Source: an uncultured Cytophagaceae bacterium (GTDB lineage Bacteria > Bacteroidota > Bacteroidia > Cytophagales > Spirosomataceae). Taken from it: a stretch of DNA of 64,000 nucleotides. The notes below the pieces were generated by a model. It had not been told where the DNA came from and searched no databases. It saw only the letters and a program-made list of their open reading frames with translations. The DNA lies in assembly GCA_903898715.1 (NCBI GenBank), contig CAIUGL010000084.1:1-64000 (forward strand), written 5' to 3'. Position numbers and translations under genes: made by a program. This document shows, piece after piece, positions 53,361 through 58,344 of this stretch (the stretch's first letter is position 1; every line of letters starts with the position of its first letter).

Positions 53361-53425
53361 TGCTCCCTCATTTAGCTTCGCCAAACCTCAAAGGATTGGC
53401 GAAGCTGAGGGGTTAAGCACAAAGC
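53355..53425 (+). repeat. Long imperfect inverted repeat directly before anmK
   Basis: Outer arms GCTTTGTGCT (53355-53364) and AGCACAAAGC (53416-53425) and inner arms AGCTTCGCCAA (53374-53384) and TTGGCGAAGCT (53396-53406) are each exact complements. CCCTC/GAGGG in between can pair with bulges. The element ends 1 bp before the start codon of anmK. Confidence 0.8.
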
Positions 53426-53426
53426 A

Positions 53427-54605
53427 TTGAATCCACAACTCGAAAAATTATACCGCATCGCTCAGCAACCTAGTCGCGTGATTCTAGGATTGATGTCGGG
53501 TACCTCCATGGATGGATTAGACATGGCGCTTTGTCGGTTTACCGGCCAAGGCCCTACTACAAAATGCGAACTACTTCATTTCGATTCGGTTTCCTTTGAC
53601 GAAAGCTTTAAAACTTCGATTCGTGCCGTATTTGCACAAGAAAACATACATTTTCCGAGTCTGAGTACCCTAAATGCCCAAATTGCCCGAACGCATGCGA
53701 AGATTATTCTCCAAACGCTGGAGTCGTGGCAGGTAAAACCGGAGGAAGTGGATCTGATTGCTTCGCATGGACAAACGGTGATGCACCGGCCGGACCGCAC
53801 GGGGAAATTACCTCATTCAACGTTACAAATTGGGGATGGGGACCATTTGGCACATGTAACGGGTATCATTACCCTGTCGGATTTTAGACAAAAGCATATC
53901 GCGGCTGGAGGTGAAGGTGCTCCTTTAGCCATGTTTGGTGATTATTTTTTATTCAGCCAAGCAGGTGAAGATCGCATATTATTGAACATTGGTGGCATCG
54001 GTAATTTTACCTACTTGCCAGCTGATCAAGATTCTACCCGCATACTAGTTAGTGACACGGGACCAGGAAATACGTTGCTCGATGCGTATATCAGACAACA
54101 TTTTGCTGGGATGAATTTTGACAAAGATGCCCAAATTGCTCGCTCGGGAACAATACATACTGGATTCTTGCAACATTTATTGAGTCTTCCTTTTTTCGAA
54201 GAGGCATTTCCAAAAAGCACGGGGCCTGAATATTTTAATTTGGACCGCATTAAGGAACTAGCTCCTGCCGATCTAAACCCAGCTGATTTCTTAGCGACCT
54301 TAACGCGCTTTACGGCAGAAAGTATCGCTTTGGCCATCCAACATTACACAGGATTACATCAGGCGCATATTTATGTAAGTGGTGGTGGTGCGCGGAACCC
54401 GTTGATGATGGAGCATTTGAAAAACTTAATGCCTGGATTTACGATTCAGGATTCTGCCGTTTTGGGAATTGAATCAGCGGCAAAAGAAGCAGTTTTGTTT
54501 GGCTTGTTAGCCAATGAAACCTTGATGGATCCGAATCCGGCACCTGATCGCCGACTGGGTGATTCGCCTTGGATGACGATGGGGAAGATAAGTTTACCCA
54601 ATTAA
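53427..54605 (+). CDS. anmK: Anhydro-N-acetylmuramic acid kinase
   Basis: It phosphorylates anhydro-MurNAc released from cell-wall turnover and opens the ring. VILGLMSGTSMDGLDMALCRF near residue 20 is the ATP-binding hallmark. SHGQTVMHRP near 112, GGEGAPLAMFGDYFLF, NIGGIGNFTYLP and SDTGPGNTLLDAYI also fit. At 392 residues it is complete. The best start is a TTG at 53427, because the only stop-free stretch upstream is about 18 bp and holds no ATG. A large hairpin sits immediately before it. Confidence 0.92.
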   Translation: MNPQLEKLYRIAQQPSRVILGLMSGTSMDGLDMALCRFTGQGPTTKCELLHFDSVSFDESFKTSIRAVFAQENIHFPSLSTLNAQIARTHAKIILQTLESWQVKPEEVDLIASHGQTVMHRPDRTGKLPHSTLQIGDGDHLAHVTGIITLSDFRQKHIAAGGEGAPLAMFGDYFLFSQAGEDRILLNIGGIGNFTYLPADQDSTRILVSDTGPGNTLLDAYIRQHFAGMNFDKDAQIARSGTIHTGFLQHLLSLPFFEEAFPKSTGPEYFNLDRIKELAPADLNPADFLATLTRFTAESIALAIQHYTGLHQAHIYVSGGGARNPLMMEHLKNLMPGFTIQDSAVLGIESAAKEAVLFGLLANETLMDPNPAPDRRLGDSPWMTMGKISLPN

Positions 54606-54730
54606 AATAGACGTTGGACGCTAGACGTTAGACGTTGGGATAGGGGGATGAAACATAGTACTTCGGACTTTTGACTTCGGACTAAAGTCTGGCAACTGAC
54701 CACTGATTACTGACTACTGTCAACTGATAT
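54606..54730. repeat. Degenerate spacer repeat between anmK and the pseudouridine synthase gene
   Basis: It begins with a 7-base tandem (AGACGTT, about four imperfect units at 54612-54636), then ACTTCGGACTTTTGACTTCG and CTGACCACTGATTACTGACT-type repeats. It is related to the adk-obg spacer at 16225-16351 and has the same orientation relative to transcription in both places. Confidence 0.75.
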
Positions 54731-55447
54731 ATGAAATACAAATTACAAGATTACATTCTTTTTGAAAATGACGATTTCATTGTCATTAATAAACCATCTG
54801 GGATTGCGACCTTGGATGAGCGGAAGGATGATTATGCGCCTAGTATTTTAAGAATGGCCAAAGTTTATTGGGAAGACGCGCAAGTGGGTCACCGCTTGGA
54901 TAAGGAAACGACTGGGGCTTTGGTGATTGCTAAAAACCCGGAAGCATACCGACATATTTCCATGCAATTTGAGCATCGGGAAACGGCGAAACGCTACCAC
55001 GCAGTTGTGGAGGGCATGCACGACTGGGATGGCATGTTGGTGAATTTACCCATCCTCCCCCTCAAAGATGGCAAAGTCATAATTGCACGATCAAATGGTA
55101 AACATGCGGAGACTTGGTTCCGTACGCTGAAAGTATACAAAGGGTATACCCTCGTGGAGTGTATGCCCATTACAGGCCGGATGCATCAAATCCGCATTCA
55201 CCTCACTTGTCTGCATGCCCCGATTGTCGCCGACGAAATGTATGGGGGAAAAGATGTTTACCTATCTGATTTGAAGCGCAATTTTCATCTGAAAAAGGAA
55301 ACGGAAGAACGTCCTTTAATGCGTCGAGTAGCTCTTCATGCGCACAGTTTGAGTTTCAAATTAATGGATGGAAATCCCATTACGGTCGAGGCTCCTTACC
55401 CGAAAGATTTTAATGTATTGACCAAACAGTTGGAGAAGTTTTCGTAA
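54731..55447 (+). CDS. RluA-family RNA pseudouridine synthase
   Basis: It converts uridine to pseudouridine in rRNA or tRNA. The catalytic aspartate is in VGHRLDKETTGALVIAK near residue 57. FVINKPSGIATL near 20 and GRMHQIRIHL near 148 are also conserved. 238 residues is short; no S4 domain is present. The last 46 bp, including the stop codon, are duplicated just before the tRNA-Arg gene at 57192-57237. Confidence 0.92.
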   Translation: MKYKLQDYILFENDDFIVINKPSGIATLDERKDDYAPSILRMAKVYWEDAQVGHRLDKETTGALVIAKNPEAYRHISMQFEHRETAKRYHAVVEGMHDWDGMLVNLPILPLKDGKVIIARSNGKHAETWFRTLKVYKGYTLVECMPITGRMHQIRIHLTCLHAPIVADEMYGGKDVYLSDLKRNFHLKKETEERPLMRRVALHAHSLSFKLMDGNPITVEAPYPKDFNVLTKQLEKFS

Positions 55448-55448
55448 A
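55403..55448. repeat. 46 bp direct repeat, copy 1
   Basis: It covers the 3' end and stop of the pseudouridine synthase gene (starting AAAGATTTTAATGTATTGAC). It matches copy 2 at 57192-57237 at 45 of 46 positions. Confidence 0.9.
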
Positions 55449-55475
55449 AATTCATTTTTAAAACCTGGCTTTCAA

Positions 55476-55503
55476 TTGTTGGTTTTTAATCATAGTAAAT
55501 TTG
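55476..55503 (+). promoter_or_regulatory. Probable promoter of the AT-rich membrane protein gene
   Basis: TTG at 55476-55478 is followed after 17 bp by TAAATTTG at 55496-55503, 37 bp before the ATG. Confidence 0.5.
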
Positions 55504-55540
55504 TGCGAAATTGTTCTTCTAGATTTACCAAATCTATTCT

Positions 55541-57067
55541 ATGTCTAATTTAGTGGCAAAACTAAACGCATCTATTGGCCTTTCTTACATACTCGTGGGA
55601 ACAGTCATTGGTCTTTTATTCTTTCAAATAAATCCTTACCAAGGCTGGGGCGATGATTATGCACTATATATCCATCAAGCGATAGCCATGAAAGATGGTA
55701 CGTTGAGCCAACTTTTTAGTGAGAACGCATTGATGATGTCATATTATAAATTAGGCCCAAATTTATATCCACCTGCTTATCCATTATTCCTACTTATCCC
55801 ACTTAGCCTCTTTGGAATGTCGATCATACATTTCAAAATATTCAATTTGATTATCTTTTGTGTGACACTTTTGATAATACATAAGATTCTGAAAATTCAT
55901 CATTTTTCAGAAAGCCAACGAAAATTATCGATCCTCGCGATTACGCTAAACTTTAATTTTATCGAATTTCAACAAAACTTATATTCCGATATTTTTTGTC
56001 TTTTTTCCTTGTCATTCTACTATTGGTCAATCATTAATTTCCGATTTTTAGACACAACATTTAGGTTAAGCATCAAACATTATCTGCTATTAACTACCTC
56101 ATTGGCAATATGCATTTTTTCCAAAACGGCCTATTTGACTGTAATTCCCGCCACCATGGCCGGATTTATTTTTTGTCTTTTATTCACGAATCAACCTAGA
56201 AAAATTGTACTAGTTAGGGGCTTCAGTTATTGTCTGCTGGCTGGAATACTACTTCTGATAAACACTCAGTATCCATTTAACGGAGGTAAAAATGAAATGA
56301 GTGAATTTTCGAATTATTCAATAATTGAGAGTATCAAAGGAAACTTATACAACAACTCCTCCTACATTTTACAAATTTACACGAAAGGGATATTTGAATT
56401 TCTCCATTTTTTTCAATTGGGAATACCTAAGAATTTATTGAAGTTATTGGTTGGCCTACCTTTTCTCGTGTTTTTGTTTTCGACTTCCTTCATCTATTTT
56501 AAAAAGACGTTTCAAGAAAAAAACTGGAAAGGAGTTATTGTCATTTGTTTCTCCTTCGCGCTATTTGGCCTCTATCTGATATGGCCTGGTAACCAAGGTC
56601 CTCGATTTTTCTTCCCGTTGTATTTGATCATTATCCCATGTAGTATTTATGCATTGGGACTTATTCCAATGAAGAGCTCTTTGAAAAATGGGGCGCATGT
56701 CATACTTGTATTGATGATGTCAACATTTGGAATTTTCACCTTGTATGATGATTTGGCCAATAAACAAGCTGAAATTAAATCATTTGAAGATTCAAGCATT
56801 GTGGGATCGATTGATTTCAATAATTGCATGGAGTATTTAAAAAAATGCCCACTAGATAATCGCAAATTTATTGGTTGCTCTAAAGCTAGGTTAATTCACC
56901 TATATACAGCAAAAAAGTCAATTGTAGCTAGTAATCAAAATACAGCTAATTGCCAATATTTAGTTTTACTCTCTACGGATGAATATGTAAATTCTTCAGA
57001 TCTTATCAGAGCATATTCGCTAGAAAAAAAATTCGGAGAACTTTATGTTTTAAAACGAAAATCTTAA
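55541..57067 (+). CDS. Polytopic membrane protein, GT39-like/ArnT-like glycosyltransferase candidate
   Basis: This 508-residue protein has about ten or eleven membrane segments. An early loop contains YQGWGDDYALYIHQA, with an acidic pair near residue 38 as in GT-C transferases that use lipid-linked sugars. YPPAYPLFLLIPLSLFG near 78 also fits that group (compare PPAY/PPLY motifs). The soluble C-terminal tail has several cysteines. The gene is visibly richer in A and T than its neighbours and lies alone between two copies of a 46 bp direct repeat, next to a tRNA gene, which suggests arrival by transfer. No other carbohydrate gene is in the module. The function call is moderate. Confidence 0.65.
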   Translation: MSNLVAKLNASIGLSYILVGTVIGLLFFQINPYQGWGDDYALYIHQAIAMKDGTLSQLFSENALMMSYYKLGPNLYPPAYPLFLLIPLSLFGMSIIHFKIFNLIIFCVTLLIIHKILKIHHFSESQRKLSILAITLNFNFIEFQQNLYSDIFCLFSLSFYYWSIINFRFLDTTFRLSIKHYLLLTTSLAICIFSKTAYLTVIPATMAGFIFCLLFTNQPRKIVLVRGFSYCLLAGILLLINTQYPFNGGKNEMSEFSNYSIIESIKGNLYNNSSYILQIYTKGIFEFLHFFQLGIPKNLLKLLVGLPFLVFLFSTSFIYFKKTFQEKNWKGVIVICFSFALFGLYLIWPGNQGPRFFFPLYLIIIPCSIYALGLIPMKSSLKNGAHVILVLMMSTFGIFTLYDDLANKQAEIKSFEDSSIVGSIDFNNCMEYLKKCPLDNRKFIGCSKARLIHLYTAKKSIVASNQNTANCQYLVLLSTDEYVNSSDLIRAYSLEKKFGELYVLKRKS

Positions 57068-57191
57068 TCGTATCAGAAAGGTAATCTCGTCTCAAAAGAC
57101 CCATTAAATATCACAGAGCACTTAAAATAAAATCGATTAGCGCGCTATTGAATCTATCGATTAATCCCTTTTGGATAAAATCTGGAGATTC
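57068..57191. other. AT-rich tail of the repeat-bounded module
   Basis: It has no gene. ATCGAT occurs twice (near 57132 and 57158) around a GCGCGC-containing centre. Nothing else recognisable. Confidence 0.3.
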
Positions 57192-57237
57192 AAAGATTTT
57201 AATCTATTGACCAAACAGTTGGAGAAGTTTTCGTAAA
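57192..57237. repeat. 46 bp direct repeat, copy 2
   Basis: It is nearly identical to the end of the pseudouridine synthase gene (one G/C difference). Its final TAAA belongs to a TAAATTTG box at 57234-57241, which precedes the tRNA gene. Confidence 0.9.
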
Positions 57238-57241
57238 TTTG
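57234..57241 (+). promoter_or_regulatory. -7 box of tRNA-Arg
   Basis: TAAATTTG matches TAnnTTTG exactly and ends 7 bp before the tRNA. It straddles the end of repeat copy 2. The first four bases are the TAA stop codon and following A in the ancestral gene end. Confidence 0.5.
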
Positions 57242-57248
57242 CAGCCCT

Positions 57249-57320
57249 GGCTCCGTAGTTCAATGGATAGAATGTAGGTTTCCGGTACCTAAGATGAAGG
57301 TTCGATTCCTTCCGGGGCTA
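57249..57320 (+). tRNA. tRNA-Arg (anticodon CCG)
   Basis: The acceptor stem GGCTCCG (57249-57255) pairs with CGGGGCT (57313-57319) with two G-U pairs. The D stem is GTTC/GAAT, the anticodon stem TAGGT/ACCTA (57275-57279 and 57287-57291), the loop TTCCGGT with anticodon CCG at 57282-57284, and the T arm GAAGG-TTCGATT-CCTTC. The discriminator is A at 57320. CCA is not encoded. It reads CGG codons. Confidence 0.93.
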
Positions 57321-57332
57321 CTTATAAGTATC

Positions 57333-57376: not shown

Positions 57377-58063
57377 TTAATCCTTTATACATCTTACAGA
57401 AAATCCAGTTCCCCTAATTGATACTGAGGCTCCTGCGACACCAACTTTAAAAACACCAACATATGAATATTTTGGGTCACTAAATTGAGAATTATCTCCT
57501 ACTGTACCTAACCAATAAGCACCTCCGATTCCACAATTCGAAATACAATATGTACCATTAGAGCCTCGACTAGTTGCTTCTGGCAATCTTAATGCTGAAA
57601 CCAAAGCGCCTTTTGAATCTTTTGAAGACCAACTACTTACCTCTTCTATCCACTCATCCTTTGTGGGCAATCTGAATCCATTTGGACATGGATTGTTAAC
57701 ACCGTTTACTCCCTGCCACAATTTATCATTTTGCGTACTTCGCCAGTCTCCGCTTGTTATAATGAAATTTCCATTGTTTGGAATATCAGAACTAGATAAG
57801 GCAATAGTAGTAGAGGAAGATCTTAATTGATGCCCATCCGAACCACGTCCCCATTGATATAAATCTCCATATGATTGAATATCATCTGAACCTCTAGCTA
57901 CCTGGGAAGCACCTAAATTCCTATCCATCCAAATGCGTCCTGTTTTGGATTTAACTTCTATGACTATAGTCGATGAATTTTGAGTTGAATTTAGTGGTTC
58001 CTCAGTTTTACAGCCAACAAAAACTATCAAGAAAAAATGGATAATAATATTTATTCGCAACAT
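57377..58063 (-). CDS. FISUMP-domain lipoprotein (Fibrobacter succinogenes major paralogous domain)
   Basis: This protein has about 228 residues and a lipoprotein signal (IIIHFFLIVFVGCKTEE). The FISUMP pattern follows: GRIWMDRNLGASQVARG, YGDLYQWGRGSDGHQ, GVNNPCPNGFRLPTKDEWIEE and GTGFSVRCIKD at the end. This C-type-lectin-like fold occurs in many cell-surface proteins of Bacteroidota and Fibrobacter; ligand unknown. I start at the internal ATG that opens the lipoprotein signal; a longer reading to 58120 has a less typical signal. Cysteines are paired. Confidence 0.82.
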   Translation of the reverse strand: MLRINIIIHFFLIVFVGCKTEEPLNSTQNSSTIVIEVKSKTGRIWMDRNLGASQVARGSDDIQSYGDLYQWGRGSDGHQLRSSSTTIALSSSDIPNNGNFIITSGDWRSTQNDKLWQGVNGVNNPCPNGFRLPTKDEWIEEVSSWSSKDSKGALVSALRLPEATSRGSNGTYCISNCGIGGAYWLGTVGDNSQFSDPKYSYVGVFKVGVAGASVSIRGTGFSVRCIKD

Positions 58064-58344
58064 CTTAATATTCACTTTAAATATTTTCTGATGATTTTTT
58101 ACAAGCAAAATACGATTCATTTAAGCCAAATTAAACCAAAATCTTCAAATTCCTAAAATTTGCCATCTACCCCTCCTTTAAGGTACTCCAGACTGCAACC
58201 CCTCCCATGACTTGGGCAGGCGGGTGTCTCCCACTGGGTCAATTCTGGCCTAGCAATTAATCATTTTTAAACATTTAACGCTATTTACATGGAAAAGGTC
58301 AACTCGACGTGTGGCTAAACGCAATTTAGTTTATTCATGACTGA
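58064..58344. other. Intergenic region with a GC-rich fragment
   Basis: No gene is seen. A GC-rich stretch at about 58165-58255 (CCCTCCCATGACTTGGGCAG, GTGTCTCCCACTGGGTC) differs from its AT-rich surroundings and may be a remnant of a mobile sequence, but I cannot name it. Confidence 0.3.

Follow-up and report, generated by a model that had tools for sequence, protein, structure and literature searches.

The membrane protein gene located between rlu and tRNA-Arg(CCG) was, with a probability of about 0.6, brought in by an integrase-less insertion with target duplication, whereby the right end would have been joined by homology-facilitated illegitimate recombination and selection for the tRNA promoter would have sorted the products. 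If so, the locus illustrates how two functionally overlapping genes 12 nt apart can take up a gene between them with no mobile element involved, their overlap ending up duplicated. The evidence comes from the window, i.e. the whole stretch of 64,000 nt analysed here (G000:C84:1-64000), and from its relatives. The respective genome (G000) is an 86% complete draft and is placed by sequence with the freshwater genus Aquirufa; the named relatives retrieved with its rlu gene are isolates of Aquirufa as well as MAGs under the label Cytophagaceae or Spirosoma.

The occupied locus and its empty counterpart

The rlu gene (54731 to 55447) encodes an RluA-family pseudouridine synthase of 238 aa (PF00849, E=4.6e-25), which also matches TIGR00005 (E=2.1e-53) with 181.6 bits, under the cut-off of 192.7. 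Its end including the stop codon forms the left copy of a 46 bp direct repeat (55403 to 55448). Further downstream TAAATTTG (55496 to 55503) represents a putative -7 box of the following gene. It is found as the identical word in G009 and G021 and fits TAnnTTTG, the -7 box consensus given for flavobacterial promoters (PMC9723704). A single ORF of 508 aa lies between the repeat copies (55541 to 57067), encoding a membrane protein which we refer to as the cargo. It is separated by a spacer of 124 bp (57068 to 57191) from the right repeat copy (57192 to 57237), a second rlu end that now makes up the upstream region of tRNA-Arg(CCG) (57249 to 57321). Genes, boxes and repeat copies are all on the forward strand. 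The insert is AT-rich, as a sequence-only reading of the window had stated: GC amounts to 32-35% at 55400-57149 versus 43-47% at 53400-55399 in windows of 500 bases.

The flank left of rlu is kept in all nine named loci compared, while beyond the tRNA one of the nine shows a match to the window, 164 bp long. This non-conserved right flank starts with a gene convergent to the tRNA (57377 to 58120), whose FISUMP / Fib_succ_major match is weak and stays under either cut-off. In the spacer upstream of rlu (54620 to 54730) short imperfect repeats were spotted by eye (gacgttggac..., acttcggact..., ctgactactg...).

Our genus set comprises 38 genomes. An rlu orthologue is found on a contig in 32 of them (30 loci plus G016 and G025), and six show no rlu match at E 1e-60. 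The tRNA starts 12 nt past the rlu stop codon in 27 of these 32 genomes, and the five Aquirufa isolate genomes (G002, G003, G004, G012 and G015) all have this empty site. With a stop-to-tRNA gap of 1801 nt the window has gained about 1.79 kb, which agrees with the insertion between two once nearly touching genes proposed by the sequence-only reading and answers its suggestion to look for the empty site in relatives. Extra DNA is present in the other five genomes: three carry the membrane gene of the window, one a different membrane gene and one three ORFs. Apart from G000, the gap measures 1832 nt in G009 and 2576 nt in G033; the contigs of G021 and G026 break inside the insert. All occupied sites derive from MAGs (G009, G021, G033) or drafts (G000, G026), which weighs against the preferred explanation.

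In the family, 210 of 222 genomes matched, and 39 genomes of other genera were hand-picked among the matches listed. A gap of 11-25 nt occurs in eight of these 39, representing six genera. It extends to 94 nt in G152 and to 183 nt in G038, 28 of the hand-picked genomes have no such tRNA downstream within the >4 kb read, and the contig of G125 ends early. We take the adjacency of rlu and tRNA to be old and the state of the window to be derived. The gap of G038 harbors a near-palindrome of 163 bp (G038:C2:36465-36627; 78% to its own opposite strand). It was considered as a multi-copy element and dismissed, as it matches itself alone in G038, on both strands. A literature search for Aquirufa islands or for a hotspot with a promoter overlap of the kind described below gave nothing on this locus among the papers listed, which is no proof of novelty.

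The rlu stop codon and the putative -7 box of the tRNA

In genomes with adjacent genes the rlu stop codon is TAA and opens TAnnTTTG in 25 of 35 and TAnnTTT in 34 of 35 cases. At the stop codon of non-adjacent genomes TAnnTTTG occurs in 0 of 28 and TAnnTTT in 2 of 28. The difference for TAnnTTT yields a Fisher p=2.7e-14, a value uncorrected for kinship with 27 of the 35 adjacent genomes coming from one genus. Judged by these words, an overlap of the stop codon with a putative -7 box is present in Aquirufa and six other genera of the family. Over the last six rlu codons, third-position entropy is 0-0.5 bit among the 27 genus genomes with adjacent genes, 0-1.4 bit among the eight adjacent genomes of other genera and 0.8-1.9 bit where the genes are not adjacent (28 genomes).

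Within the window, TAAATTTG recurs at 57234 to 57241 as the putative -7 box of tRNA-Arg(CCG), its TAA being the counterpart of the ancestral rlu stop codon. The earlier identification of this TAA as the ancestral stop codon is supported by the counts from adjacent and non-adjacent genomes. Where the right junction of an occupied genome can be read (four genomes), TAnnTTTG always precedes the tRNA. The rlu gene left behind has lost it in 5 of 5 occupied genomes (to TAAAAATT in the window), with G026 retaining TAnnTTT.

With the rlu stop codon forming the start of the tRNA's putative -7 box, either rlu or the tRNA should suffer from any insertion that fails to bring along another rlu end or a new promoter. 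At E up to 1e-10, tRNA-Arg(CCG) was detected in 31 genomes, and 30 of these have one near-full-length copy. The overlap with the putative box of an apparently single-copy tRNA gene would offer a natural test of which insertion products survive. G035 has two copies (G035:C264:3518-3590 and G035:C106:36-108), one beside rlu and the other near a contig end; a relative of the G026 membrane gene is located 4 kb on from this second copy.

Repeats, exchange of the rlu end and the proposed course of the insertion

The two repeat copies of the window are identical at 45 of 46 positions, as the sequence-only reading had noted, with a spacing of 1789. None of 20000 mononucleotide shuffles of the right flank reached this match (stop codon left unscored). 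A query of 73 bases across the right copy finds two matches in G000, namely the two copies (E up to 0.1). The differing base changes Val to Leu in the rlu frame; being not synonymous, it was counted against the preferred explanation. In G009 the repeat spans 61 nt, 58 of them identical, and its three differences are all synonymous in the rlu frame, which fits an rlu end that was coding until recently. The right match of G026 is short (11/12, reached by 5 of 20000 shuffles), and G033 has no significant duplicate at the right (770 of 20000 shuffles reach it). These two genomes indicate that duplication is not general at this site; it is clear for the window's cargo alone. A match of 24 nt to the repeat in G014:C57 lies within an unrelated-looking coding stretch and was taken as chance.

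The cargo was found in 3 of 222 family genomes (G000, G009, G021), all within the genus and all beside rlu. Between G000 and G009, dS is 1.56 for rlu codons 1-200, 0.11 for the last 33 codons (206-238) and 0.27 for the cargo. The shift falls on a breakpoint near rlu nt 604, i.e. at about 55334 in the window: 99 of 185 variable columns differ between the two genomes before it and 2 of 37 after it (0 of 2000 permutations). G021 and G009 show a breakpoint at the same place (8 of 2000 permutations). Moreover, in rlu columns 600-660, which lie upstream of the repeat, G000 is 95% identical to G009 and 92% to G021 versus 72-78% to ten other genomes. The contrast in dS, the breakpoint and these columns together show that the cargo has been exchanged horizontally and that the last ~110 nt of rlu travelled along with it, in one direction or the other. 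As the last rlu codons are slow-evolving, any inference from them is weakened either way. Of eight other pairs scanned, all but G009-G014 gave 104 to 1013 of 2000 permutations. G009-G014 itself shows a mosaic signal at rlu nt 162 (22 of 2000), so exchange within rlu may be common. The right copy of G009 is closer to the G000 type than the diverged rlu body of G009 predicts, and both copies may therefore be module-borne, which counts against the preferred explanation.

Based on this, the preferred insertion would have proceeded as follows. In the ancestor, tRNA-Arg(CCG) would have started 12 nt past the stop codon of rlu, with the stop codon inside its putative -7 box. A membrane gene acquired horizontally and lacking its own recombinase would then have been inserted between the two, the incoming DNA bearing an rlu end as left homology arm. 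The left crossover would have been homologous and within rlu, whereas the right end would have been joined without homology within the recipient's own rlu end. The product would begin with a full-length rlu, followed by the cargo and by another rlu end, variable in length and still bearing the tRNA box, and selection would have kept only products with both rlu and the tRNA promoter intact. The sequence-only reading had left a choice between a mini-island mobilised in trans and a recombination product. Our data favour the latter, in which the left repeat would be part of a homology arm transferred with the cargo.

The right junctions of G000 and G009 are unlike in spacer and in repeat length (46 versus 61 nt), although later local replacement could also give this. 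Past the cargo stop codon the spacers measure 124 bp and 140 bp, respectively; they do not find each other, and no similarity was detected between them. Outside itself, the G000 spacer has merely two matches of 19 and 23 nt. The G009 spacer has a 32 nt match in four genomes, probably by chance in AT-rich sequence. In L087, the sole one of the four with ORFs listed, the match starts directly after an ORF of 493 aa, which we take to be SusD-like from its appearance.

These junctions bear on an unlikely alternative, namely a single ancestral insertion followed by homologous exchange of the whole locus via rlu and the tRNA, with spacers replaced locally later on. The values for G000 and G021 (dS 0.43 for rlu, 0.28 for the cargo) fit vertical descent of both genes, and right repeat plus tRNA of G000 and G009 are alike at 99 of 100 positions in the last aligned block. 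However, the spacers are unlike though dS of the cargo is only 0.27, so that a second right-hand event is needed anyway.

Rather unlikely is a small integrative element mobilised in trans, for which the 3' end of rlu would serve as attachment site and the repeats as attL and attR. The traces expected from such an element are repeats over a gene 3' end next to a tRNA, along with a host gene that stays intact and with empty sites, and PF00589 matches are present in all 11 genus genomes searched. Yet the length of the repeat varies from 46 to 61 to about 12 nt to not significant across the four occupied genomes with readable junctions, unlike spacers follow the same cargo, and three different cargos occur. 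The ORF of the insert has no Pfam match; genome-wide, where the search used the PF00589 model, the only match in the 86% complete draft G000 is a 305-aa frame on another contig. The absence of an integrase stated by the sequence-only reading is supported for the insert. Where PF00589 matches do lie near this tRNA (3 of 11 genomes), they sit on its 3' side. An integrase island is not preferred given the varying repeat boundaries and an insert without recombinase, and a mini-island moving as a unit with fixed ends is not supported. The repeat was also examined for attC-like folding; it folds no better than shuffles (z -0.30, 0.16, -0.15), so that the folding attC site of an integron gene cassette is not seen. 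Direct repeats beside a tRNA are by themselves no evidence of an integrase island.

Very improbable is a local tandem duplication of the rlu-tRNA junction that took up foreign DNA between the copies later: a lone duplication would keep both functions and G035 does possess a second tRNA-Arg(CCG) on another contig, but a duplicated end without cargo is seen in 0 of 32 genus genomes, all 27 cargo-free ones having a gap of 12.

Other cargos, known systems and the cargo protein

The insert of G026 codes for another membrane-type protein, split over two contig pieces, and that of G033 for three ORFs, one of them with a match to the porin model NF040900 (42.5 bits versus a cut-off of 150). Neither G026 nor G033 yields a match to the window's cargo, nor does C84 of G000 yield one to the G026 piece. 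We call the cargos of G000, G026 and G033 different, though the two membrane proteins may be remotely related. Other cargo at the same place, a second check suggested at the outset, is thus found in G033 and G026, and it was counted for the preferred explanation.

Relatives of the G026 gene (31-35% identity) are located ~1.4-4 kb 3' of tRNA-Arg in G026, G006, G018 and G032. Just past the tRNA of G026 (L069:1168-4155), a relative of the G026 cargo (32%) occurs alongside a glycosyltransferase (PF00534). Together with the G026 cargo they possibly place surface-sugar genes on both sides of the tRNA. Partial copies of tRNA-Arg(CCG), comprising its 3' 47-51 nt, occur in six genomes (G002:C41, G008:C144, G011:C1, G013:C6, G022:C14, G024:C85), and in G002, G011 and G024 PF00589 matches are found 3' of the tRNA at a distance of ~0.2-1 kb. 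G002, G011, G024 and the other genomes with partial copies probably contain canonical islands 3' of the same tRNA. The usual islands hence appear to use the 3' end of the tRNA, with the cargo described here on the opposite side.

A long target duplication upon insertion is described for restriction-modification genes of Helicobacter pylori (PMC1643837, PMC3154945). As far as these accounts go, the present locus is similar in that a recombinase-less gene lies between direct copies of host sequence that is single in relatives. It comprises an empty site, flanking duplicates (45/46 in G000, 58/61 in G009) and an insert without transposase or integrase; the duplicates are weak in G026 and lacking in G033. 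Unlike in Helicobacter pylori, the cargo is a membrane gene instead of a restriction-modification gene, the duplicated stretch is a gene end doubling as putative tRNA promoter, and the repeat length varies between relatives.

Homology-facilitated illegitimate recombination has been put forward to explain the type VI effector arrays of Vibrio cholerae (PMC5361080; for the process see also PMC3240628). To the extent described there, both systems share a homologous 5' anchor; a non-homologous 3' join, with the old 3' part displaced downstream, would be a further common trait. The homologous end is seen here in the contrast in dS and the breakpoint at rlu nt 604 (0 of 2000). The displaced piece, in contrast, is a gene end of 46-61 nt plus putative promoter and not an immunity gene, and no serial array is seen. 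The locus also resembles tRNA islands with a tyrosine integrase as outlined for Islander (PMC4383910), for the variable site is marked by a tRNA and the insertion leaves a restored junction. It differs from this outline by an insertion upstream of the tRNA, without integrase and without a duplicated tRNA 3' end; in G000 a single tRNA match was found (E up to 1e-10).

A further, speculative idea, which we regard as quite improbable, is that rlu end and tRNA promoter form a portable docking unit, where surface genes would be swapped singly with the rlu end as anchor, i.e. a recombinase-free cassette exchange site. If true, each arrival would leave a new promoter-bearing end before the tRNA, and the products would always be filtered by tRNA function.

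The 508-aa cargo has no Pfam, NCBIfam or PADLOC match, including PF02366 and PF13231. When 390 genomes of the order were searched with its profile, four remote homologues turned up (22-23% identity), none of them within the family; two of the four show PMT-family matches below cut-off. Structure predictions are poor (mean pLDDT 34.6 and 42.0) and unfit for a fold search, and the profile matches no solved structure at E up to 1. From these distant homologues, the cargo may well be a GT-C (PMT/ArnT-like) glycosyltransferase acting at the cell surface. A plasmid or phage origin was dismissed, as plasmid and phage collections gave no match (tblastn, E limit 1e-5). The same holds for a viral origin: viral_contigs contain no relative, and of five stretches fitting a pattern none was confirmed. 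A reading as defence genes was rejected as well, with no PADLOC match for the six proteins of inserts and flank.
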